44,380 bases of DNA from a virus. This document shows, one piece after another, positions 661-31,950 of the stretch (position 1 is the first letter of the stretch; each line of letters opens with the position of its first letter). The notes beneath the pieces are model-generated. The model saw nothing but the letters and a program-made list of their open reading frames with translations, did not search any database and had not been told where the DNA came from. The translations under genes were made by a program, and so were the position numbers. Location: IMG/VR virus record IMGVR_UViG_3300027973_000082, positions 1 through 44,380 of that record; one strand, written 5' to 3'.

Positions 661-1286
661 GACCATGCTCCTACTGAAGTGTTAGCACCAGATGCGGAAA
701 GCGGATTGATTCGGATGTAGCTACCAGCAGCTGTTGAATAAGCACCTCCTGGTGCGGCTGATAGCGTGTATTGCGGAATGAATGTGCCGCCAGCGTTTAT
801 TGATAATGTGCCTTTGATTATTATAAAAAACACATAAGATGCAGAAGTAATTGCGCCAGTAAAAACTTGACTTGATGCTGTATTTATTACCGATGTATCT
901 ATAGCAGTGGCTAATGCAATCCAAGGAATTGTAGTTGCCCCATTTCTTCCAAATGTATCGTAAAGAATATTATTAAGAGTTGCTGTTCCACCAAATCCAA
1001 AAGAAATTGTGTGAGATGTTGTGCCTGCGGTTTTTGTTAACGCAAGATTTAATTCAAACTCATACACAGTACTTGCAGACAGCGTTACACCAACACCAAA
1101 TATGCTTTGTGCCGTACTAACGTTTGCACCAGCAAGGTCAGCATTCAGTCTGTAATACTGCTGAGTCGGAACAATGCCTCGCTGTGTGCCGATAGGTGTA
1201 GCGGCGTAGATTGGGCTTGAGTATTCAATGTTGCCAGCGGCTGGCGTAGCAATTAGTGTGTCAGAAGTTAAAACAAGTATTGACAT
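657..1286 (-). CDS. Putative tail fibre/virion surface protein
   Basis: 209 aa, low in charge and beta-rich. The N-terminal part contains GIVPTQQYYRLNADLAG followed by GVGVTLSASTVYEFELNL, which suggests a jelly-roll or lectin-like sandwich. I recall similar openings in tail proteins of uncultured phages but cannot name a family. It lies between two genes that share a tail module (142-660 and 1289-1867) and belongs to the leftward late operon. Its stop overlaps the next start by four bases. The exact role is not readable from the sequence. Confidence 0.7.
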   Translation of the reverse strand: MSILVLTSDTLIATPAAGNIEYSSPIYAATPIGTQRGIVPTQQYYRLNADLAGANVSTAQSIFGVGVTLSASTVYEFELNLALTKTAGTTSHTISFGFGGTATLNNILYDTFGRNGATTIPWIALATAIDTSVINTASSQVFTGAITSASYVFFIIIKGTLSINAGGTFIPQYTLSAAPGGAYSTAAGSYIRINPLSASGANTSVGAWS

Positions 1287-1288
1287 GA

Positions 1289-1867
1289 TTATCCTTCGTA
1301 CAAAATGTTGATTGATCCAGCATCAAAGGTATCCGTGCCGTTAGCGGTAGTGATTCTGACTCTATCTAAAGCACCAGATAAAGTTACATCCCCGCCAGTA
1401 ATACTATTAAATTCTGTAGCATTACCTCCAAGAACTCCTGCCGCAACCCATATATTTGAACCAAACGATGTCAACGTTGTTGTTCCACTGTAAACGGTTG
1501 CCGCAGTTGTATTGCTAAAACCAAATCCAGTTGTATATGCACCAGCGCCAACAGAAGTAGCGCCAATCCTAGTACCACCTCCTGAATATCCAGTGTTTTG
1601 TATTGAACCAGAACCAAGCTGAATCAAAAATTGAGATGTTCCACTTATTGAAACACCTTTAAATAAAATAGATACACGCTTTACCCATGCTGGCAAACCT
1701 GTAAAATCAATAGACGTACCAGATGTACTTGCAACTGCTGTACCCAATGTATTGACAGACATTGTTGCAGTAGCGGCTTGCAAAGTGATTGTGCTAGTTC
1801 CCGCAACAGCAGGGGCGGCAAGTGTTACCTGTCCGCTGGTATCTCCTGATATAACGACTGATGACAT
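1289..1867 (-). CDS. Tail protein sharing a module with the variable tail gene
   Basis: 192 aa. The first 35 residues are unique (SSVVISGDTSGQVTLAAPA). The rest follows the same plan as the genes at 142-660 and 43838-44371: TSGTSIDFTGLPAWVKRVS, a diverged centre, then ALDRVRITTANGTDTFDAG at the end. The shared ends and diverged middles point to module exchange among tail genes. It was probably made by duplication of the same domain onto a different N-terminal anchor. No enzyme motif is visible. Confidence 0.72.
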   Translation of the reverse strand: MSSVVISGDTSGQVTLAAPAVAGTSTITLQAATATMSVNTLGTAVASTSGTSIDFTGLPAWVKRVSILFKGVSISGTSQFLIQLGSGSIQNTGYSGGGTRIGATSVGAGAYTTGFGFSNTTAATVYSGTTTLTSFGSNIWVAAGVLGGNATEFNSITGGDVTLSGALDRVRITTANGTDTFDAGSINILYEG

Positions 1868-19211: not shown

Positions 19212-19736
19212 ATGCCTAATTGGTGTAATAACACAATGACTATTTCTCATCCAGATCCAAACATGATTGTCAAAGCACTAGATGCTTGGAACTCTGGTCA
19301 GTTTTTGCAAACACTTGTTCCTTGTCCACAGGATCTGATTGACACAGTTTCAGGATGTTTTGGAGATGGAGAAAAACAAAAAGCTTTAGAAAAAAAGCAA
19401 AAAGACAATTTTGAAAAGTATGGCTATCCAACATGGTGGGAATATTGTGTAGCTGAATGGGGAACTAAATGGGATGTGGGACACGACCAATACAGAGATC
19501 CACCTATTCTTCATAACAATGGGTTTTCTGTTGCTTTTGAGAGTGCTTGGTCACCGCCTTGTGATGCTTATGCCAAACTTAAAGAATTGGGCTACACCAT
19601 AAAAGCTTATTACTACGAACCTGGATGTGATTTTTGTGGTCGATGGCTTGATGGTGAAGATGAATGCTACCAACTTTCTGCTGGCGACATTCCAGAAGAT
19701 ATTGTTGAAGAAATGGGTATTGAATCAGTTGAGTAA
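19212..19736 (+). CDS. Api92/YubB-like protein (DUF1281 type)
   Basis: 174 aa. MPNWCNNTMTISHPDP is the signature opening of this family. It continues with AEWGTKWDVGHDQ, then NNGFSVAFESAWSPPCDAYA and GYTIKAYYYEPGCDFCG. The fold is ferredoxin-like, and such proteins occur on plasmids and phages; their biochemical role is unknown. AACGGAGATCAAA precedes the ATG. This is a complete, ordinary-length member. Confidence 0.8.
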   Translation: MPNWCNNTMTISHPDPNMIVKALDAWNSGQFLQTLVPCPQDLIDTVSGCFGDGEKQKALEKKQKDNFEKYGYPTWWEYCVAEWGTKWDVGHDQYRDPPILHNNGFSVAFESAWSPPCDAYAKLKELGYTIKAYYYEPGCDFCGRWLDGEDECYQLSAGDIPEDIVEEMGIESVE

Positions 19737-19903: not shown

Positions 19904-19917
19904 AGGCGATGTTGCCT
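19904..19917 (+). promoter_or_regulatory. GATGTT-loop hairpin before the cassette gene at 19933
   Basis: AGGC-GATGTT-GCCT, a 4-bp stem closing a GATGTT hexaloop, just before the ribosome site GAGGGAG. A hairpin with the same hexaloop (GCGG-GATGTT-CCGC) precedes the gene at 30635. It may be a binding site in the 5' leader. Confidence 0.3.
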
Positions 19918-19932
19918 GTGAGGGAGAAACAA

Positions 19933-20382
19933 ATGGATGCTCACATGATGTCCACTTTGTATGCTGCTGCTACTGAGAGTCTTGTCTCAGATGCTTCGGC
20001 TACAAGTACATTCGAGAAGATGATAGCTGTTGCGTTTACGCATAGCTCAGTTGAAACGTTTGCTAAAGACTTGAAAGACACAGAGAAACAAATCAAGAAA
20101 GACTTTGATGTTAGCTCTATGCCTGGTCCTTGGAGATCAGCTAAGTCTGTGATTCACGGTGCTATGAAGCTCAGCATCAAGCTCATTGATGACAACGGAA
20201 GCTATGTCGGTAAGACATTTCTTCAGAACAAGATCAAAGAACTGAAGACTCCCAAAGAAGAAATGAGTGCTGAAGATTACGCCAACAAAGTTATTAAGAA
20301 CTTGATGAATGTTCCTGAAGGCATGGATGCTGTCAAAGTGTTCAAGCTGGTCAAAGACTTTGTGAATGCGAGTGGTAAGTAA
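19933..20382 (+). CDS. Unknown helical protein, first gene of the VWA/MoxR cassette
   Basis: 149 aa from MDAHMMSTLYAAATESLVSD. I chose this ATG because GAGGGAG lies six bases upstream; an ATG at 19909 has no ribosome site. It is all helical and positively charged in the middle (DLKDTEKQIKKDFDVSSMPG, then WRSAKSVIHGAMKLSIKLID). No known domain is visible. Its stop overlaps the start of the VWA gene (TAATG), and that gene overlaps the ATPase gene. A joint role as adaptor or substrate of the MoxR-VWA pair is likely (inference). Confidence 0.68.
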   Translation: MDAHMMSTLYAAATESLVSDASATSTFEKMIAVAFTHSSVETFAKDLKDTEKQIKKDFDVSSMPGPWRSAKSVIHGAMKLSIKLIDDNGSYVGKTFLQNKIKELKTPKEEMSAEDYANKVIKNLMNVPEGMDAVKVFKLVKDFVNASGK

Positions 20383-22178
20383 TGCTAACCAAAGGCATTG
20401 AGGTCATGAAGTACATACGTGCAAGTGCTGGTAGAGCTGGCATTTCCGTTGTATTTGAAGACGCTAACCAACCTAGGCATGATGGTAAAACTATCTTCTT
20501 GCCAAGGATTGTTACTAGTACCACAGACCTAGAACTCAAACAGCTAATGGCATCAACAGATCACGAAGTGGCACATGATCGCTATAGCTCGTTTGATATT
20601 CTAAAGAAGAAGGAACTAGATCCCCAGGGTATATTGATGTTCGTATGGAACTTCTTAGAAGACTCCAGAATCAACTATATCGAAGCTATGGAGTATCGTG
20701 GCTTCAGGGAGAACTGGGATGATTGCAGCTCGTTGCTTATCGAAAACATCATTCGTAAAAGCAGCAAGAACACTGGTCCCATAGCAACACTCATCACAGC
20801 TTTACTTCATTGGGAAACAACTTTAACTAGTTCTGTCTTTCCTCGGATAGAGTTAGTTGTAAGCAAAGCAACCCCTGATAAAAAGGTTCTGGATGTTCTT
20901 AATAACTTTACTGATCGTCTTGCTGATTGTTACAAAATTCTGGATAAAGAAGTAGGTACTGAAGCAACATATCAGTTGGCTGTAGACATCCTCAAAGAAC
21001 TCACTGAAGAGTGCAAAGAAGAACTGAAGCCAATACCTGTTAAGCCTGTTAAGGGTGATGGCGAAGGTGAACTAAAAAAGTCTGGTGGAGAAGAAAAGGT
21101 AGAGGGAGAAGCCAAAGGAAAAGACAAAGGTGAAGGAGAAGACACCAAAAGCAAAGATGACGAATACAAAGTCATTGAGCTGAAAATCACAGAAGAAGAG
21201 TTAGAGACTTATTCTTTGTCTATGCACAACGAAAGTGGTGAAGACATGGGTAAAGTCGGTATTAACTTTGAACCTGTAAAAACAAAAGATGGTTGGGATC
21301 TAACTGACTACGATAAATACATCGTTGTTGATTATCCTAAAAACACAAGCCCTGCTGATTACTTTTTGACTCCTAAAAAGACTGTTTTTCTTTCTGAATA
21401 CCAAAAACTTGTTGAACCAGAACTTGTCTCACAAGAGAATTTTGCTCAACAAGTACGCAGGTTGATTCAAATAAAAGCAAAAGTGCAACGACAGTACGGT
21501 GTCAAGAAAGGCAAACTGGATCAATCTAGGTTGTCTCGTATCTGTTTTGATGCACCAGGGTTCAATGAGCGTGTGTTTAAGAACAAAATTGACAATAAAA
21601 CGCTTGATGCAGCTATCACGGTACTCGTAGATATGTCTGGGTCTATGCAAGGAATGAAAGCGTACTACGCTCTTGCTTCTACTTTATTGGTTAATGAAGT
21701 TTGTTCAACTCTAAACATACCTCTTGAAATTGTTGGTTTTACTGACGGAAAAATTAATTCATATACTGATTGGTGTCCAGTCATGTATATTTACAAAAGT
21801 TTTTCTGATTTAAAAGTTGACTCAGATCATCTAAAAAAGTATTTCCAAGTAAGTAGTCAGTGGATGACAGGTAATCCTGACGGTGAAAACATTCTTTGGG
21901 CGCATGATCGACTAATTAGACGCAAAGAGAAGAAAAAGCTATTGGTTGTTATGTCTGATGGCAGTCCAGCAGCTTCTAAATCATCTTCAGGTATTGGTAG
22001 ATTTACAGAGAAAGTAATCAGAGAGATAGAAGCTGCAAAGATTGTTGACATCTATGGTTTGGGTTTGTGTAGTACGTCAGTACAGACTTACTACAAAGCA
22101 CACAGCGTAGTCAATCAACCGCAAGAAATACCAAGCAAATTGTTAGAACTCATAGAAAGGAAGATCATTAATGTCTGA
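20382..22178 (+). CDS. CobT-like VWA-domain protein with HExxH motif
   Basis: 598 aa. Near the N-terminus HEVAH (residues 61-65) matches the HExxH zinc motif, in TDHEVAHDRYSSFD. Next is a helical domain, then a Lys/Glu/Gly-rich linker (about 220-265). The C-terminal von Willebrand A domain has VLVDMSGSMQGM (MIDAS DxSGS, about 417-421) and VVMSDGSPAAS (about 523). The plan matches CobT-type subunits that work with MoxR-like ATPases. The downstream overlapping gene is such an ATPase. No CobN is present, so cobalt insertion is unlikely. A remodelling or metal-linked role in infection is probable. Confidence 0.82.
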   Translation: MLTKGIEVMKYIRASAGRAGISVVFEDANQPRHDGKTIFLPRIVTSTTDLELKQLMASTDHEVAHDRYSSFDILKKKELDPQGILMFVWNFLEDSRINYIEAMEYRGFRENWDDCSSLLIENIIRKSSKNTGPIATLITALLHWETTLTSSVFPRIELVVSKATPDKKVLDVLNNFTDRLADCYKILDKEVGTEATYQLAVDILKELTEECKEELKPIPVKPVKGDGEGELKKSGGEEKVEGEAKGKDKGEGEDTKSKDDEYKVIELKITEEELETYSLSMHNESGEDMGKVGINFEPVKTKDGWDLTDYDKYIVVDYPKNTSPADYFLTPKKTVFLSEYQKLVEPELVSQENFAQQVRRLIQIKAKVQRQYGVKKGKLDQSRLSRICFDAPGFNERVFKNKIDNKTLDAAITVLVDMSGSMQGMKAYYALASTLLVNEVCSTLNIPLEIVGFTDGKINSYTDWCPVMYIYKSFSDLKVDSDHLKKYFQVSSQWMTGNPDGENILWAHDRLIRRKEKKKLLVVMSDGSPAASKSSSGIGRFTEKVIREIEAAKIVDIYGLGLCSTSVQTYYKAHSVVNQPQEIPSKLLELIERKIINV

Positions 22179-23295
22179 AACAGAAACAAAGTCAAAGGTC
22201 GAAGATCTTGTTAAATCAAAAATCAAAGAGGCAATGGAAAAGCGTAAAGTCTCAACAACAGACACAACAACATACGACATAGCTTCTGATACCTATGTGA
22301 CTGAAACACCAACAGCTCCTGTAATAACACGACCTGAACTTAAACCAGGTCAAATCTACTTCTCTAATTTGTTCAAAGAAATTTGGATCATCGACAAAGA
22401 AGACTTTGGTGTCACAATGTTCCATGAAACTACTTGGGATGAACGTATCGCTTCATTTGTTCCTAGTATCAATCCTACTTATGTCTTTGACAAAGACTTG
22501 GCTGCAAACGTTTTAAGAGCATGGGAGTTAAATGAAAGAGTACTCTGTTACGGGCCTACGGGGGCTGGTAAATCTAGTCTTATTGAGCAGCTTTGTGCTC
22601 GTACTGGTCGCCCTTTCGTTCGGGTTAATTGTACTGGGGACATGGATACCTCAATGATCTTTGGTCAATTGACAGCTAAAAGCGGTTCAACAATCTGGGT
22701 AGATGGTGCTGTAACAGAAGCTGTACGTTATGGTGCTGTGTTTGCTTGGGACGAGTGGGACGTAACTCCTCCAGAGATTTCTATGGGTCTTCAGTGGCTC
22801 TTAGAGGACGATGGCAAGCTCTTCTTGAAAGAAATGCCTGGTAGTACCAAAGACAAACAGATTGTCCCTCACGAGCATTTCCGTATCGTAGCTATTGGCA
22901 ACACACAAGGTCAAGGCGATGAGACAGGAGCACATGCTGGTACTAACGTTCAGAACTCTGCAACACTTGACCGTTTTGGTACTGCTGTTTACGTTGATTA
23001 CCTTGATGCTTCTATCGAAGAAACAATGTTGACCAACAGGTATCCAGACACAATTACCAAGAAAGCAGCCAAAGAACTTGTCAAACTTGCTAACTTGATT
23101 CGTCAAGGTTACAAAGCAGCTCAGTTCAATCTAACAATGTCTCCACGTTCATTGTTTAGCATCTGCAACAAAGTTTCTTTTGGGATGACTTTGAGAACTG
23201 CATTCAATCTTGTTTACCTGAACAAGCTAAACGACACACAGCGTAAGGTTGCTGACGAGTTGTTTACTAAGATTTACGGTAACAAAGAGATCTAA
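22171..23295 (+). CDS. CobS/MoxR-like AAA+ ATPase
   Basis: 374 aa. Walker A GPTGAGKSS (about 128-136), GRPFVRVNCTGDMDTSMIFG after it, Walker B VFAWDEWD (about 190-197), sensor region RIVAIGNTQGQGDETGAH (about 239-256), and an arginine in ATLDRFG. This is the MoxR clade as in CobS. The N-terminal about 110 residues are specific and contain a possible partner-binding domain. It overlaps the VWA gene by eight bases, so the pair is co-made. Hexameric ATPase with a VWA partner is the usual form; the target is not known. Confidence 0.87.
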   Translation: MSETETKSKVEDLVKSKIKEAMEKRKVSTTDTTTYDIASDTYVTETPTAPVITRPELKPGQIYFSNLFKEIWIIDKEDFGVTMFHETTWDERIASFVPSINPTYVFDKDLAANVLRAWELNERVLCYGPTGAGKSSLIEQLCARTGRPFVRVNCTGDMDTSMIFGQLTAKSGSTIWVDGAVTEAVRYGAVFAWDEWDVTPPEISMGLQWLLEDDGKLFLKEMPGSTKDKQIVPHEHFRIVAIGNTQGQGDETGAHAGTNVQNSATLDRFGTAVYVDYLDASIEETMLTNRYPDTITKKAAKELVKLANLIRQGYKAAQFNLTMSPRSLFSICNKVSFGMTLRTAFNLVYLNKLNDTQRKVADELFTKIYGNKEI

Positions 23296-23311
23296 AACCA
23301 CAAAACCACAA

Positions 23312-23340
23312 GGCTCTCCTACGGGAGAGTCTTCTATTTT
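23312..23340 (+). terminator. Terminator after the MoxR-like gene
   Basis: GGCTCTCC and GGAGAGTC pair (one G-U) around TACG and are followed by TTCTATTTT. It separates the VWA/MoxR cassette from the replication genes. Confidence 0.7.
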
Positions 23341-23351
23341 GGGCTTTAACT

Positions 23352-24143
23352 ATGATCAAACACAAAATACTTCTTGACAACGCTCCATCTGTGGTAGGAC
23401 AGCAGATACACATTAATCACATTGACTGTGAAGCAGGTGTAGACACTAAACGTAGGCTGTACATCAAACGTGAAGCTACTGCAATTGTGGCGTATTGCCA
23501 CCATTGCAATCAAAAAGGTTTTGTTAAGCACGGTGATGACAGATTGTCTACCTGGATCAACAAACCAGCAGCGGCTGCTACTAGTAACACTAAGCCTGTT
23601 ATAGCGTCTCTTACAACCGAAGGTAAAGTATGGCTGCACAGTCACTATTGCGACACAACAAACAGCAGCTTCAACGGCATAGCAGGGGAGCGACACAAAG
23701 TCGCTCTCACACTACACGACACAGACAACCAGCCAATAGGCTGGCAGATCAGGAACCTTGCACCTAACGCAACACCCAAGTACACAACACACTACACCAA
23801 CAGCAGCTCCAAAGGAGATGCAGCTTGGTTTAAAGGTAACAACACGCTAGTGATAACCGAAGACTATCTCAGTGCTTGGCGAGTTAACTACGACACAGGT
23901 TACACATCTGTGGCGTTACTAAGAACAGCACTGTCAGATAAAACGCTAAGACAAATACACGACTTGAACTTTGAGTACGTTGTTATTTGGCTTGATCCCG
24001 ATGAAGCAGGTGTACAAGGAGCAGCAAAAGCATACAAAAAACTAAACCACTTCCTACCATCAACAACAAAGATTATCGTGCTTGGCATAGATAAAGAACC
24101 CAAACAATGCACACCAGCAGAGCTGGAAAGCATACTCATTTAA
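23352..24143 (+). CDS. DNA primase (zinc-finger plus Toprim)
   Basis: 263 aa. The N-terminal zinc module has a cysteine at residue 26 and CHHC (49-52). The Toprim core has LVITEDYLSAWRV (about 166-178, catalytic Glu170) and VVIWLDPDEAG (about 210-220). It is shorter than bacterial DnaG and resembles the primase half of T7 gp4, here as a separate protein. The helicase half is the next gene, nine bases downstream. It makes RNA primers for lagging-strand synthesis. Confidence 0.82.
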   Translation: MIKHKILLDNAPSVVGQQIHINHIDCEAGVDTKRRLYIKREATAIVAYCHHCNQKGFVKHGDDRLSTWINKPAAAATSNTKPVIASLTTEGKVWLHSHYCDTTNSSFNGIAGERHKVALTLHDTDNQPIGWQIRNLAPNATPKYTTHYTNSSSKGDAAWFKGNNTLVITEDYLSAWRVNYDTGYTSVALLRTALSDKTLRQIHDLNFEYVVIWLDPDEAGVQGAAKAYKKLNHFLPSTTKIIVLGIDKEPKQCTPAELESILI

Positions 24144-24152
24144 AGGAAATAA

Positions 24153-25418
24153 ATGGATTATGATGTTCTCTATCTTTGCTCTCAAAGCAAAGAGAACCTT
24201 ACCAAGTACAGGCGGTACATCAAACCGCACGTAGTGGTCAAAGAAACCAATGTCATCTTAGATGGCATGGACAAATACTACAAAACATTCCCAGGGGTAA
24301 CTGAGTTCAACTGGGAATCTTTCTCTGCGTTCCTAATAGCAGATCAAAGCAAACGGCTTACAGATGATTCAATTGTCAAACTCCGCATGACATTGACCAA
24401 AGCTAAGACGTTTGTCCCACACCATGCACATGAAGAAGTAATCAAAACTCTCATAGAGTTGGATTATCTTGCTCAGATTATGGAAGAATGTGAGAAGGTC
24501 AAGGAAGGCTCTAGCGATCTTGAACACGTACACATACTTGCAACCAATGCTCTTAAAGATGTGGAGAGATACATTGAAAAAGATGAGTTGTTTGTTTCTG
24601 CTGATCTTAGTGTTATTGCAGATAGGATTAGTTCTTCTGGTTATGAATGGCGCTTGGATGTACTTAATCGTTCTTTGGGTCCCTTACGTACTGGTAACTT
24701 TGTCATTGTCGCTGCTCGTGTGGAAGTAGGTAAAACAACATTCTTAGCCAGCGAGGTCAGTTATCTTGCACAGCAATTACCTGTAGACAGACCTGTTGTA
24801 TGGGTCAACAACGAAGAGGAATCTTCTGTTGTGTTCTTCAGGATTGTTCAAGCTGCACTAGGTAAAGAATCTAAAACAATTATTGCTGACTCTAAGACAG
24901 CAATGACTGAGTACACAACTCTCATGGGTGGTAACAAAGACAAGATACGTGTTACTAAGGACATGAACCACGTTCGTGACTTAGAGACATTGTTCCGTGA
25001 GGTTAACCCAGGTTTGATTGTGTTTGACCAGCTTGACAAAGTAGATGGCTTTAACAAGTCTGACGACAGAGAAGACATCAAGCTTGGCAAAATCTACAAG
25101 TGGGCAAGGGAACTTGCTAGAAACTATGGCCCAGTTATTGCTGCATCACAGTTGTCTGCAACAGCAGTGGATATGAAAGACCCTCCGTTTATTGGCTTAG
25201 ATGCTCTTCGTGGCTCTAAGACTGACAAACCAGGTGAGGCTGACGTAGTAATCACAATTGGCAAGTACAAAGAACCAAAGAGTCCAGAGGAAGAAATGAT
25301 CCGCACAATCAATGTTCCTAAGAACAAACTACCTGGTGGTGGTGCTAAGCACATGGAGTCCGAGCGTCATGGACAGTTCCTAGTAACTATTGATCCTATT
25401 CGTGCAAGGTATGAGTGA
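24153..25418 (+). CDS. DnaB-like replicative helicase
   Basis: 421 aa. The RecA-like core has a P-loop AARVEVGKTTFLAS (Gly193-Lys194-Thr195; the usual first Gly is Ala188), then RPVVWVNNEEESS, a Walker B GLIVFDQLDKVDG (about 288-300) and PVIAASQLSATAVDMKDPP. LDALRGSKTDKPGEADVVIT gives the arginine-finger region. The N-terminal part is helical, as in DnaB or gp4 linkers. It follows the primase, so the T7 gp4 functions are split over two genes. Confidence 0.86.
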   Translation: MDYDVLYLCSQSKENLTKYRRYIKPHVVVKETNVILDGMDKYYKTFPGVTEFNWESFSAFLIADQSKRLTDDSIVKLRMTLTKAKTFVPHHAHEEVIKTLIELDYLAQIMEECEKVKEGSSDLEHVHILATNALKDVERYIEKDELFVSADLSVIADRISSSGYEWRLDVLNRSLGPLRTGNFVIVAARVEVGKTTFLASEVSYLAQQLPVDRPVVWVNNEEESSVVFFRIVQAALGKESKTIIADSKTAMTEYTTLMGGNKDKIRVTKDMNHVRDLETLFREVNPGLIVFDQLDKVDGFNKSDDREDIKLGKIYKWARELARNYGPVIAASQLSATAVDMKDPPFIGLDALRGSKTDKPGEADVVITIGKYKEPKSPEEEMIRTINVPKNKLPGGGAKHMESERHGQFLVTIDPIRARYE

Positions 25419-25878
25419 AAAATACACATTTGGTTGGTCAGATTATTCAATGGGAATACGCACAATGACAAGTCCTGCAATTTCAAAAGTAGAAGAAGCT
25501 TTAATAAAAACAGAATTACACCTTCATAATCCATTTGAGAACAACGTTCTTAAGATAGCTTATGTTGGCAGCAGGGTAACTTGTGTGCCAGCTCCTACGG
25601 ATACAGATGAAGACGTATTGATTCTTACAGACAAACTAGGTGAGTTTGTTAGAGGTTGTAACAAAGCAGGATTTAAAGACAGTGGGTCTTATACAGGACC
25701 TGCATTTCACTCTTTAAGACACGGAGAAGTTAATTTAATCATCACAGACAGCGAGGAGTTTTACGATAAGTTTATGCTTGCAACTCATGTGTGCAAGTCC
25801 CTAAACGTGTTAGACAAACAACACAGAATCATTGTGTTTCAATCAATTCTTTATGGAAAGGCCTATGGAAAACCATGA
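25411..25878 (+). CDS. Nucleotidyltransferase-like protein
   Basis: 155 aa from MSEKYTFGWSDYSMGIRTMT. Residues about 50-75 read YVGSRVTCVPAPTDTDEDVL, a GS motif with a DxDxD cluster typical of polymerase-beta-like nucleotidyltransferases. A later HGEVNLIITDSEEFYDKF may hold the third acidic position, but Asn replaces the expected Asp. Similar genes sit in phage replication modules; their substrate is unknown. It overlaps the helicase stop by eight bases and the polymerase start by four. Confidence 0.68.
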   Translation: MSEKYTFGWSDYSMGIRTMTSPAISKVEEALIKTELHLHNPFENNVLKIAYVGSRVTCVPAPTDTDEDVLILTDKLGEFVRGCNKAGFKDSGSYTGPAFHSLRHGEVNLIITDSEEFYDKFMLATHVCKSLNVLDKQHRIIVFQSILYGKAYGKP

Positions 25879-27815
25879 CCATAGCATTCGCAGCAATTGA
25901 CGTTGAGACAACACTCAACGGTAACGAAGACATAGGACTAGCTCATCCTATGCACCCTGACAACGAAGTCGTAGCGTATGGACTATGCGAAGATTTGTTG
26001 CCATTAGCAACATACGACAGAGATGAGTTTGCAGAAAACTTGTACATGTTAGACAAGAACGTTACATTGTGTGGTCACAACATTTCTTTTGATCTAATGT
26101 ATTTATACAAAAGTGATGGAGAAGAAATACACGATCTTAAAACCATATTACAAAGTCACAAGATTTGGGATACACAACTGGCAGAATACATCCTGTCGGG
26201 ACAACGTACTAAGTTCTCAAGCTTAGACGAGCTGTCAGTTAAGTATGGTTTGCCTGTCAAAGATGATGGTATTAAGAAATACTTTCAGGCAGGTCTAGGC
26301 TCTGACAAGATTCCTCCTGAAGAACTAACACCTTATCTAGAACAAGATGTTATTAATACCAAAGCTATTGCTCATTTGCAATACGACCGTGCTGTAGAAG
26401 CAGGACAGCTCACGTTGATTGAAACTCAGATGGAAGCACTACACGCAACCACAGAGATGCAATACAACGGGCTGCACATAGATAAAACAAGGCTAGACAA
26501 CTACACAGTAGAAGTCGTAGACAAGTTTGTAGAAGTTAAGCTTGACCTAGAAGCATTGGCAGTAGGTCATGTAGAAGACATCAACAGTCCTAAACAATGG
26601 TCACAGTTTTTCTTTGGTGGCAAGAAGAAAGTCAAAGTCAAAGAAGAAGTTGGTGTCTACAAGAACGGCAACACTAAGTACAAGCTTGTAGAAAAAACAG
26701 TGGTTATCAAACCATTCATCAACTACGTACCAGACCCAGAGAAAGTATCTGCAAAGACAGGTCAGATCTCAGTAGACGACACAGTGCTAAACGATATGTT
26801 GAAGCATACGTTTGATGCTAAAGCTATTGCAATTATCAATGGTTTGTTGAAATACAGAGAACTAGCAAAACAACTCTCAACGTATGTTCAGGGTCTAAGC
26901 AAACACATCATCGAAGACTTTATACACGGCAAACTTAACCACACAGCAACAGTCACAGGTCGTTTATCGTCAACCAATCCTAATTTACAAAATATTAGTA
27001 ATAACCCGATTAAACAAATCTTTAATTCTAGATATACTAATGGCGTTGTTGTCGAGGTTGACTTTAATCAGTTGGAGGTTGTAGCTCTTGCTCATGTTAC
27101 TAAGGACAAACAGTTGATAGATGACATTAGCAGCGGCATAGACATCCACAGTGCTTTGTACAAAGATATGTTTGGCAGGATGCCAACCAAGGAAGAGAGG
27201 AAACCATTCAAGTCTCGTACGTTTCAATTGATCTACGGTGCTGGTGCTAAGGCTATTGCCAAACAAGCAGGTTGCACTCTAGAAGAAGCTACAAAGTTTG
27301 TAGATGTGTTCTATGGTCGTTACAAGTCAGTAGCTAAGTGGCATACAGATTTTGCAAAAATGATTGAAGCTGGAGCAACAAACGATGTGAATGAAGAGGG
27401 GTTCAGGGAAAAATTCAGAACCTACGTTCATCAGACTGAGACAGGCAGAAAGTATTGCTTCTCAGAGTATTACAACGAGAGTAGTTGGTCAACAAGGATG
27501 TACACATTCAGTCCTACAGAGTTGAAAAACTATCCAGTGCAAGGTTTAGCTACTGGAGATATTGTCCCAATGATGTTGGGCATTATTTTTAGACAGCTAT
27601 TGGGTAGAGGTGATGTGAAGATGGTTAACACTGTTCACGATTCTCTAATGTTCGATGTCAAGTCTGATTCAGCAGACGCTTTTATTACGGAGATAACAAC
27701 AATTCTGCAATGTACCCACATGTACTTTGAAGAAACATTCAAGAAACCATTGGCTCTAAAGCTCAATGCAGGAGCATCAATTGGTAAAAATTGGTTTGAT
27801 ATGAAAGAACTTTGA
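25875..27815 (+). CDS. polA: Family A DNA polymerase with 3'-5' exonuclease
   Basis: 646 aa from MTIAFAAIDVET; the ATG overlaps the previous stop, and a longer frame into the upstream gene is rejected. Exonuclease residues: DVET (9-12), GHNISFDLMYL, and YLEQDVINTKAI. Polymerase motif A VEVDFNQLEVV (about 392), motif B KSRTFQLIYGAGAKA (about 443, with Phe at the ribose-discrimination position), and motif C VNTVHDSLMFDV (about 587). Motif C has HDS where most bacterial enzymes have HDE. T7-like replicative polymerase. Confidence 0.92.
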   Translation: MTIAFAAIDVETTLNGNEDIGLAHPMHPDNEVVAYGLCEDLLPLATYDRDEFAENLYMLDKNVTLCGHNISFDLMYLYKSDGEEIHDLKTILQSHKIWDTQLAEYILSGQRTKFSSLDELSVKYGLPVKDDGIKKYFQAGLGSDKIPPEELTPYLEQDVINTKAIAHLQYDRAVEAGQLTLIETQMEALHATTEMQYNGLHIDKTRLDNYTVEVVDKFVEVKLDLEALAVGHVEDINSPKQWSQFFFGGKKKVKVKEEVGVYKNGNTKYKLVEKTVVIKPFINYVPDPEKVSAKTGQISVDDTVLNDMLKHTFDAKAIAIINGLLKYRELAKQLSTYVQGLSKHIIEDFIHGKLNHTATVTGRLSSTNPNLQNISNNPIKQIFNSRYTNGVVVEVDFNQLEVVALAHVTKDKQLIDDISSGIDIHSALYKDMFGRMPTKEERKPFKSRTFQLIYGAGAKAIAKQAGCTLEEATKFVDVFYGRYKSVAKWHTDFAKMIEAGATNDVNEEGFREKFRTYVHQTETGRKYCFSEYYNESSWSTRMYTFSPTELKNYPVQGLATGDIVPMMLGIIFRQLLGRGDVKMVNTVHDSLMFDVKSDSADAFITEITTILQCTHMYFEETFKKPLALKLNAGASIGKNWFDMKEL

Positions 27816-30996: not shown

Positions 30997-31950
30997 TTAG
31001 ACATTGTGTATCTTGCCTCTAAACTCAATCAGACCATCTGCCCATGTATGAACCAATTCAGGCCACAATAAATTACCGTCATGGAATGTCAGAATAGCAA
31101 AACCTGATCGCCAGTTGGTTGGTGATAGTTCTAAGTAATTCTCAAACTGTGGGCCTGTAGGTTCAGCTAAAGTGCCTGTGTCTACCCCATATCTTGTACC
31201 ACGATAATCATCAAAGGGGGTTACCTTGAGACTGTGTAAATGCCCAGTACAAATATTTACCCCGCTATTCACAGTATTGTTGTGGGTAGCGTGTACGCCG
31301 CCTTTCCAGCGGTGTTTAACAATAGTATTCTCCGTAGGCCAACACGCCCAACAAGGTGTCCAAGCAGGGAAATGATCCTTGAGACTAAAACCTTTAATAA
31401 ATTCATACTGAGGAGCGTTAGCAGCTAAACGATTCTCAAACCTAGCATCGTGATTACCCAGGGTCCAAATTAACTGAGCATTGTGTCTAACGTTCTTAGT
31501 AACATCTTCTATCTCACCCATCGCTATTTCACAAGCTTTAAGCTCTTGAATTACAGATGGTGTGGAATCCCAACCAATTCTTGGATAGCGAGAAATACTA
31601 GCGCCATCAAAAATATCGCCATTGGCAATAACTGCATTGGGTCTAAACTCTTTAATAGCCCATAAAAGTCCTTTAAATGCCGTAGTATGTATACCAGGCC
31701 AAAAATGAGCATCACTAAAAACAATAACAGTGCCATTTAATATTCCTAAATCTTTACGGGCTGCGCTAGGTTTTGTAGAAACACCTGGTTTAGGTGTACG
31801 AGCTTCTAATGCTTGCCCGTATTTAATTTCTAAATTGCGTCTGCGTTTAAGCACTGATCGCACATTCATATTGCCAGCTTTTGCTACCTCAGCAGCATAA
31901 CCATTATTGTTTTTCCAAAGTTCAATAAACTCTTGGTCAGTTAACTTCAT
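30997..31950 (-). CDS. Metallophosphoesterase with N-terminal HTH-like extension
   Basis: 317 aa. Residues about 1-60 look like a helix-turn-helix (QEFIELWKNNNGYAAEVAKA, with VRSVLKRRRNLEIKYG). The calcineurin-like core follows: VFSDAHFWPG (Asp80, His82), IANGDIFDG (about 108-116), TLGNHDARF (about 165-173), VHATHNN and TGHLHSLK. All metal-binding motifs are present, so it should be active. The fused DNA-binding-like domain suggests action on nucleic acid. It is the last gene of the late unit and has a TTGTCACATA element upstream. Confidence 0.85.
   Translation of the reverse strand: MKLTDQEFIELWKNNNGYAAEVAKAGNMNVRSVLKRRRNLEIKYGQALEARTPKPGVSTKPSAARKDLGILNGTVIVFSDAHFWPGIHTTAFKGLLWAIKEFRPNAVIANGDIFDGASISRYPRIGWDSTPSVIQELKACEIAMGEIEDVTKNVRHNAQLIWTLGNHDARFENRLAANAPQYEFIKGFSLKDHFPAWTPCWACWPTENTIVKHRWKGGVHATHNNTVNSGVNICTGHLHSLKVTPFDDYRGTRYGVDTGTLAEPTGPQFENYLELSPTNWRSGFAILTFHDGNLLWPELVHTWADGLIEFRGKIHNV

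Follow-up and report, generated by a model that had tools for sequence, protein, structure and literature searches.

A phage CobS/CobT-type gene pair with an intact zincin motif and a linked orphan gene: probably a remodelling or proteolytic machine rather than a cobaltochelatase

Several known systems, including NorQ/NorD, CbbQ/CbbO, RavA/ViaA and Bacillus YojN/YojO, combine a MoxR-type ATPase with a VWA protein. The same pairing is found in a three-gene cassette of the virus record IMGVR_UViG_3300027973_000082, which was analysed over its entire length of 44.4 kb (hereafter “the window”), and in which a small orphan gene is followed by a cobT-like and a cobS-like gene. Among the closest described systems is the aerobic cobaltochelatase CobN-CobS-CobT (TIGR01650/TIGR01651, PF06213/PF11775; PDB 9uka series), which likewise combines a CobS-type AAA+ ring subunit with a CobT-type partner, and whose CobT shares with the phage protein a homologous N-domain, an acidic linker and a VWA domain bearing a metal ion-dependent adhesion site (MIDAS). 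Viral cobST has been described widely, and the annotation of cyanophage cobT as a peptidase has been called a mistake (Liu et al., PMC8651126); this viral cluster, including cyanophage cobS and the adjoining “peptidase” (phrog_459), represents the same two-gene system as the window, except that the 149-aa partner is specific to the window's lineage. In T4-like cyanophages, cobS is a core gene and is still discussed among the metabolic genes for vitamin B12 (PMC3037559; PMC11705849). Pairs of a MoxR ATPase and a vWA-metallopeptidase have also been reported for group 2.2 jumbo phages (Iyer et al., PMC7824862). As in the window, the AAA+ gene lies there beside a gene whose product joins an N-terminal metallopeptidase domain to a vWA domain; the two pairs, which are compared here by description and presumed to be homologous, differ in that the window represents a 44-kb phage, carries its pair in the replication module and encodes an additional conserved 149-aa protein.

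Here, we propose, with a probability of roughly 60%, that the cassette encodes a MoxR/CobS-type AAA+ machine with a zincin-VWA partner rather than a cobaltochelatase, and that this machine remodels or clips a replication-associated protein. A remodelling or proteolytic machine is probable because the cobalt-inserting subunit is missing and because the phage protein has kept a peptidase signature that true CobT has lost. This agrees with an initial annotation of the sequence, in which the lack of CobN beside the CobS/CobT pair was pointed out and MoxR-VWA pairs were said otherwise to act as chaperone or remodelling machines. Pieces of this picture have been seen earlier (PMC8651126; PMC7824862), and the new elements are the motif contrast with true CobT, the carrier hosts without CobN, and the 149-aa orphan. 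In the open-licence literature searched, no publication joins viral cobST with the jumbo-phage pairs, sets the motif against that of true CobT, or looks for CobN in carrier genomes.

Motifs and predicted structure of the cassette proteins

The three overlapping genes, encoding proteins of 149, 598 and 374 aa, had been delineated in the initial annotation and were confirmed as open reading frames (ORFs). The cassette comprises the following features:

19933..20382, plus strand: 149-aa orphan gene (“small”), first in the cassette, ORF
20382..22178, plus strand: cobT-like gene, 598 aa, with a zincin-like N-domain (residues ~1-209), an acidic low-complexity linker (~215-270) and a C-terminal VWA domain
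20562..20576, plus strand: HEVAH motif at residues 61-65, a candidate zinc-binding site
20649..20663, plus strand: NFLED, residues 90-94, proposed to supply a third zinc ligand and a supporting residue
21630..21647, plus strand: MIDAS motif DMSGSM of the VWA domain, residues 417-422
22171..23295, plus strand: CobS/MoxR-type AAA+ ATPase, 374 aa (AAA_5, E-value 3e-17)

The ATG of the cobT-like gene overlaps the TAA of the small gene by 1 nt, and the cobT-like and cobS-like genes overlap by 8 nt. An in-frame ATG upstream of the small gene, at 19909, would extend its product to 157 aa if used.

The CobT-like protein matches the VWA family PF11775 strongly (E-value 1e-23) and the N-domain family PF06213 weakly. 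In an alignment of 21 CobT-like sequences (A2), residues H61, E62, H65, N90 and D94 all belong to the 55 invariant columns, and the MIDAS is intact, with D417, S419, S421 and the partner residues D500 and D526 invariant. Among full-length close relatives, 58/58 retain HExxH. In a tree of VWA domains, the window protein groups with its counterparts in the Vibrio phage ICP2 (Zobellviridae) and the divergent relative L022 (support 94/96); even ICP2 keeps HExxH, N90 and D94, and within A2, E93 of the downstream N/H-x-x-E-D motif is altered in ICP2 alone. The combination of HExxH and N/H-x-x-E-D recurs in SSU5, RHph_X66, CRP-810, P-SSM4 and other cyanophages, DLP_6, Ochrobactrum OC, the Gordonia phage ChisanaKitsune, the Brevibacterium phage Cantare and the haloarchaeal virus HVTV-1, as well as in several proviruses; HExxH is present in proviruses or phage-plasmids of Xenorhabdus, Buttiauxella, Photobacterium, Roseospira and Poseidonocella genomes. 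A separate observation in HVTV-1 is a SprT-like protein encoded near the CobS/VWA pair (L256:773-1489). At the motif level, an HExxH followed by a downstream acidic third ligand, as in zincins and gluzincins, points to a metallopeptidase-type N-domain fused to a vWA domain.

The AlphaFold2 model of the N-domain (predicted local distance difference test, pLDDT, 92.7; predicted template modelling score, pTM, 0.88) has its structural elements in zincin order: HExxH falls within a long helix (49-68) and NFLED within a later one (84-104). In a fold search of the PDB, the minigluzincin selecase ranked first (4qhi; E-value 1.3, probability 0.60, not significant), and gluzincins occupied ranks 1, 4, 5, 8, 9 and 20, all at E-values above 1. 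Minigluzincins resemble the phage N-domain in their compact fold and in carrying HExxH in a helix; however, the fold match is not significant and no sequence relation was found. Judged from its motifs, the CobT-like protein may bind zinc and act as a peptidase.

Both Walker motifs of the CobS-like protein are intact (A, GPTGAGKSS at 128-136; B, WDE at 193-195) and, together with sensor-1 N244, R268 and R326, are invariant in a further alignment (A3). The two genes therefore form a MoxR AAA+/vWA pair, defined by an adjacent AAA+ gene with Walker A/B and sensor residues, and NorQ and CbbQ appear among the sequence matches. The HEVAH, DxSGS and Walker motifs highlighted in the initial annotation were thus all recovered, and they are invariant or nearly so in relatives. 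A defence-system reading was rejected, as PADLOC gave generic P-loop matches for CobS only and nothing for the other two proteins. In the Listeria phages A511 (L254) and LP-018 (L259), CobS occurs without a recognisable CobT nearby, and cobS is followed by a gene for an uncharacterised protein of 280-300 aa.

Comparison with true CobT and the search for CobN

Neither phage protein reaches the equivalog cut-offs for aerobic cobaltochelatase: the CobT-like protein scores 97.5 bits against TIGR01651 (cut-off 759, about one eighth) and the CobS-like protein 132.6 bits against TIGR01650 (cut-off 558.6, about one quarter). At the homologous site, HExxH is absent from true CobT of alphaproteobacteria (0/32). 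Poseidonocella and Roseospira harbour both types in the same genome, a chromosomal CobT without HExxH (801 and 747 bits to TIGR01651, the latter just below the cut-off) and a phage-type CobT with it. In a profile alignment (hhalign, E-value 1.5e-5), HEVAH aligns to ADSxALRLRHH and NFLED to DAVEQ of true CobT; in contrast to the intact HExxH and N/H-x-x-E-D of the phage protein, true CobT has (A)DSxALRLRHH and EQAR. A HEPAH sequence in one true-CobT locus (L267) was rejected as a homologous motif, since it sits far upstream of this site. HExxH is also lacking in the VWA homologues of Bacillota (0/72), which we take to be YojO-like and which differ from phage CobT in this respect. The unrooted VWA tree groups true CobT into a single clade next to the roseophage-type proteins (93/98). 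This placement is consistent with loss of HExxH, although the tree has no fixed root and several long branches. Besides a phage-type CobT, Photobacterium ganghwense (L294, G142) encodes a chromosomal protein of the CobT type that lacks HExxH and has a probable cobS gene just upstream; this genome is without detectable CobN, and the chromosomal pair is possibly another CobN-less VWA/AAA+ system.

The absence of a CobN gene, as claimed in the initial annotation, held in a wider search: PF02514 was found in none of 24 phage records (the window plus 23 related or CobST-bearing records), with positive controls detected. A 1151-aa ORF of the window was dismissed as an overlooked CobN, with no PF02514 match in the window and only a weak PHROG match to an unknown family. 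The search was extended to eight bacterial genomes with a phage-type CobT, some of them draft assemblies: CobN was not found in six (Morganella, three Xenorhabdus, Buttiauxella and Photobacterium), and Roseospira and Poseidonocella do have it. In addition to lacking CobN in the phage, and often in the host as well, the phage system differs from CobN-CobS-CobT in the location of its genes in a replication operon and in the extra small gene.

These data bear on the view that viral CobS and CobT constitute a true chelatase sub-complex, which borrows CobN from the host to raise cobalamin (PMC8651126; for the B12-gene view, PMC11705849). Such a role would account for the homology to CobS and CobT, for the CobN of the Roseospira and Poseidonocella hosts and for the neighbouring positions of true and roseophage-type CobT in the tree. 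However, the borrowing model fails for six of the carriers and is therefore not general, as those genomes have no CobN. Furthermore, the scores lie far under the equivalog cut-offs, phages retain precisely the peptidase motif that CobNST discarded, ribonucleotide reductase, a suggested B12 consumer, is found in only one of 21 phages of the window's group, and a scan of the window with Rfam, riboswitches included, gave no family match. We consider a chelatase function very improbable. The single ribonucleotide reductase sequence in the group was matched in three pieces on the L064 contig (G016:C1:15663-16832, minus strand).

The replication neighbourhood and the linked 149-aa protein

Downstream of the cassette, the following features were found:

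23310..23333, plus strand: terminator-like hairpin, 10 pairs, followed by a T-rich stretch
23352..27815, plus strand: TOPRIM primase, DnaB-like helicase, small ORF (phrog_15166) and PolA-type DNA polymerase, directly downstream

A 5'-3' exonuclease gene also follows on the plus strand. The order cobS-primase-helicase-polA is preserved in 53/53 relatives with enough sequence. In unrelated phages, the CobS/CobT pair adjoins dnaE (SSU5, nickie, RHph_X66 and an Acinetobacter plasmid), lies between helicase/primase and dnaE (BUCTxx99), or stands beside gp46 and the gp45 clamp (P-SSM4, S-CAM3, ACG-2014f and Ochrobactrum OC) or nucleotide-metabolism genes (Cantare and DLP_6); the surroundings in Listeria, Gordonia, haloarchaeal and roseophage genomes are not diagnostic. 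The initial annotation had described the cassette as a self-contained unit bounded by a terminator. The hairpin is indeed present, and of 19 further loci inspected most have it too, with a different stem; it is, however, missing in the divergent relatives L022 and L072, and in L150 the cobS and primase genes overlap, so that the cassette is part of a replication operon and is not sealed off from it.

At the nucleotide level, the window had no match among phage records. Just 5' of the cassette, at 19212-19736 (plus strand), lies a gene whose 174-aa product weakly matches a DUF1281/Api92-like ferredoxin fold, and a metallophosphoesterase-like gene (31000-31950, minus strand) borders the minus-strand block.

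The small gene is tightly linked to its neighbours. It lies immediately 5' of cobT in 52/52 IMG/VR cobT loci with enough upstream sequence, so that the neighbourhood survey, in which its absence beside cobT in related phages would have spoken against the initial annotation, turned out in favour of the latter. Conversely, cobT follows the small gene in 96/96 small-gene loci with enough downstream sequence, and cobS is adjacent to and downstream of cobT in 65/65 relatives. Some of these loci are the same contigs retrieved twice, so that the counts are not all independent, yet the arrangement is far beyond chance. The linkage persists down to identities of ~30% for the 149-aa protein and ~32% for CobT, in L022. 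The ratio of nonsynonymous to synonymous substitution rates (dN/dS) of the small gene is 0.02-0.13 against three relatives.

As the initial annotation had supposed, the 149-aa protein appears to represent an undescribed family. No family match was obtained in Pfam, NCBIfam, PADLOC or PHROG, no homologue among 50,697 phage records, and no relative in a scan of 84,980 bacterial and archaeal genomes, where 77 pattern matches were all rejected after tblastn confirmed none; searches of named phages with divergent family members as queries gave nothing significant. The AlphaFold2 model consists of seven helices (pLDDT 88.6, pTM 0.66) and has no fold match in the PDB, and eight structural relatives in BFVD (E-values up to 0.02) are exclusively viral and without described function. 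The most conserved stretch of the family reads PxxWRSAKSxI...LxDxNG...GKTxLQxxIK. The products encoded upstream of cobT in ICP2 (94 aa) and in BUCTxx99 (197 aa, resembling guanylate kinase) were tested as homologues and rejected, as a hidden Markov model gave no match. The 149-aa protein was found in one lineage only, with no counterpart beside cobT in these two phages, and does not belong to phage CobS/CobT machines in general.

Several points weigh against a proteolytic or remodelling machine acting in replication. Adjacency to replication genes does not prove a role in replication, and for the jumbo-phage pairs a function in virion assembly was proposed (PMC7824862). A virion-assembly chaperone with a processing peptidase would share the AAA+/vWA-metallopeptidase architecture, and proteolysis is often needed in phage maturation (PMC7824862). 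However, genes for replication or nucleotide metabolism, not structural genes, surround the pair in most of the phage groups examined, and in the window the terminase, portal and head-closure genes are on the minus strand, opposite to the cassette; for the present system, we therefore regard virion assembly as unlikely.

Further contrary evidence concerns the peptidase itself, whose zinc binding and proteolysis are putative. HExxH has been lost, with VWA domain and ATPase kept, in BUCTxx99, nickie and an Acinetobacter phage-plasmid (L002, L154, L155), so that not every such machine depends on peptidase activity; these losses offer a natural test of whether the site can be dispensed with. In addition, L022 carries another, divergent gene of the 149-aa family (1205-1660, plus strand; E-value 8e-9) ~3 kb upstream of cobT, the sole member seen unlinked to it. 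Both the three HExxH losses and the separate copy would fit a remodeller of the AAA+/VWA type whose zincin fold serves purely as a docking scaffold, without peptidase activity, and for which the small protein is an unrelated operon neighbour. NorQ/NorD and CobST likewise function without a peptidase. On the other hand, the five putative zinc-site residues are invariant in A2, the motif is kept from cyanophages to haloarchaeal viruses, and the small gene is followed by cobT in the 96/96 loci, down to a CobT identity of ~32%. An inactive scaffold is thus a rather unlikely alternative, and it overlaps with the machine proposed here, which allows remodelling without cleavage.

Proposed mechanism and implications for viral CobS annotations

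In the machine that we propose, CobS-like subunits would assemble into an ATP-driven ring, onto which the CobT-like protein would dock via its VWA domain, thereby bringing in a zincin-type metallopeptidase domain with an intact site. The complex could then unfold, remodel or clip one particular component of the phage replication complex, or an interfering host protein. The 149-aa protein, made from the same transcript, would be a lineage-specific partner that serves as an adaptor, regulates the peptidase or is its substrate.

The motif also bears on the cyanophage annotations. The “peptidase” beside cobS in P-SSM4 (L158:1748-3979) contains HEVGH, NVLED and DWSGSM, and searches for cyanophage CobS and for the “peptidase” returned the same record counts in three organism-name groups (365, 61 and 24; 450/450). 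By these sequence features, the cyanophage “peptidase” is an HExxH-VWA protein of the CobT type; for viral CobT, the peptidase label may hence be right and the chelatase label wrong. A wider and clearly more tentative version of the proposal is that the CobS ring, an active zincin-VWA protein and the 149-aa adaptor or substrate might form an ATP-dependent metalloprotease at the phage replisome, that such systems might be widespread from cyanophages to haloarchaeal viruses and mislabelled as B12 genes, and that CobT might be a derived, site-less relative.

If the phage pair is a remodelling or proteolytic machine, an entire category of “auxiliary metabolic gene” annotations would be wrong, and the long-standing question of what phages use CobS for would become testable by mutating a single motif. 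The always-linked 149-aa orphan would provide a first candidate for a partner or substrate. Moreover, this reading suggests a relationship between the CobT of cobaltochelatase and a peptidase-bearing partner of an AAA+ ATPase, from which CobT may have descended.

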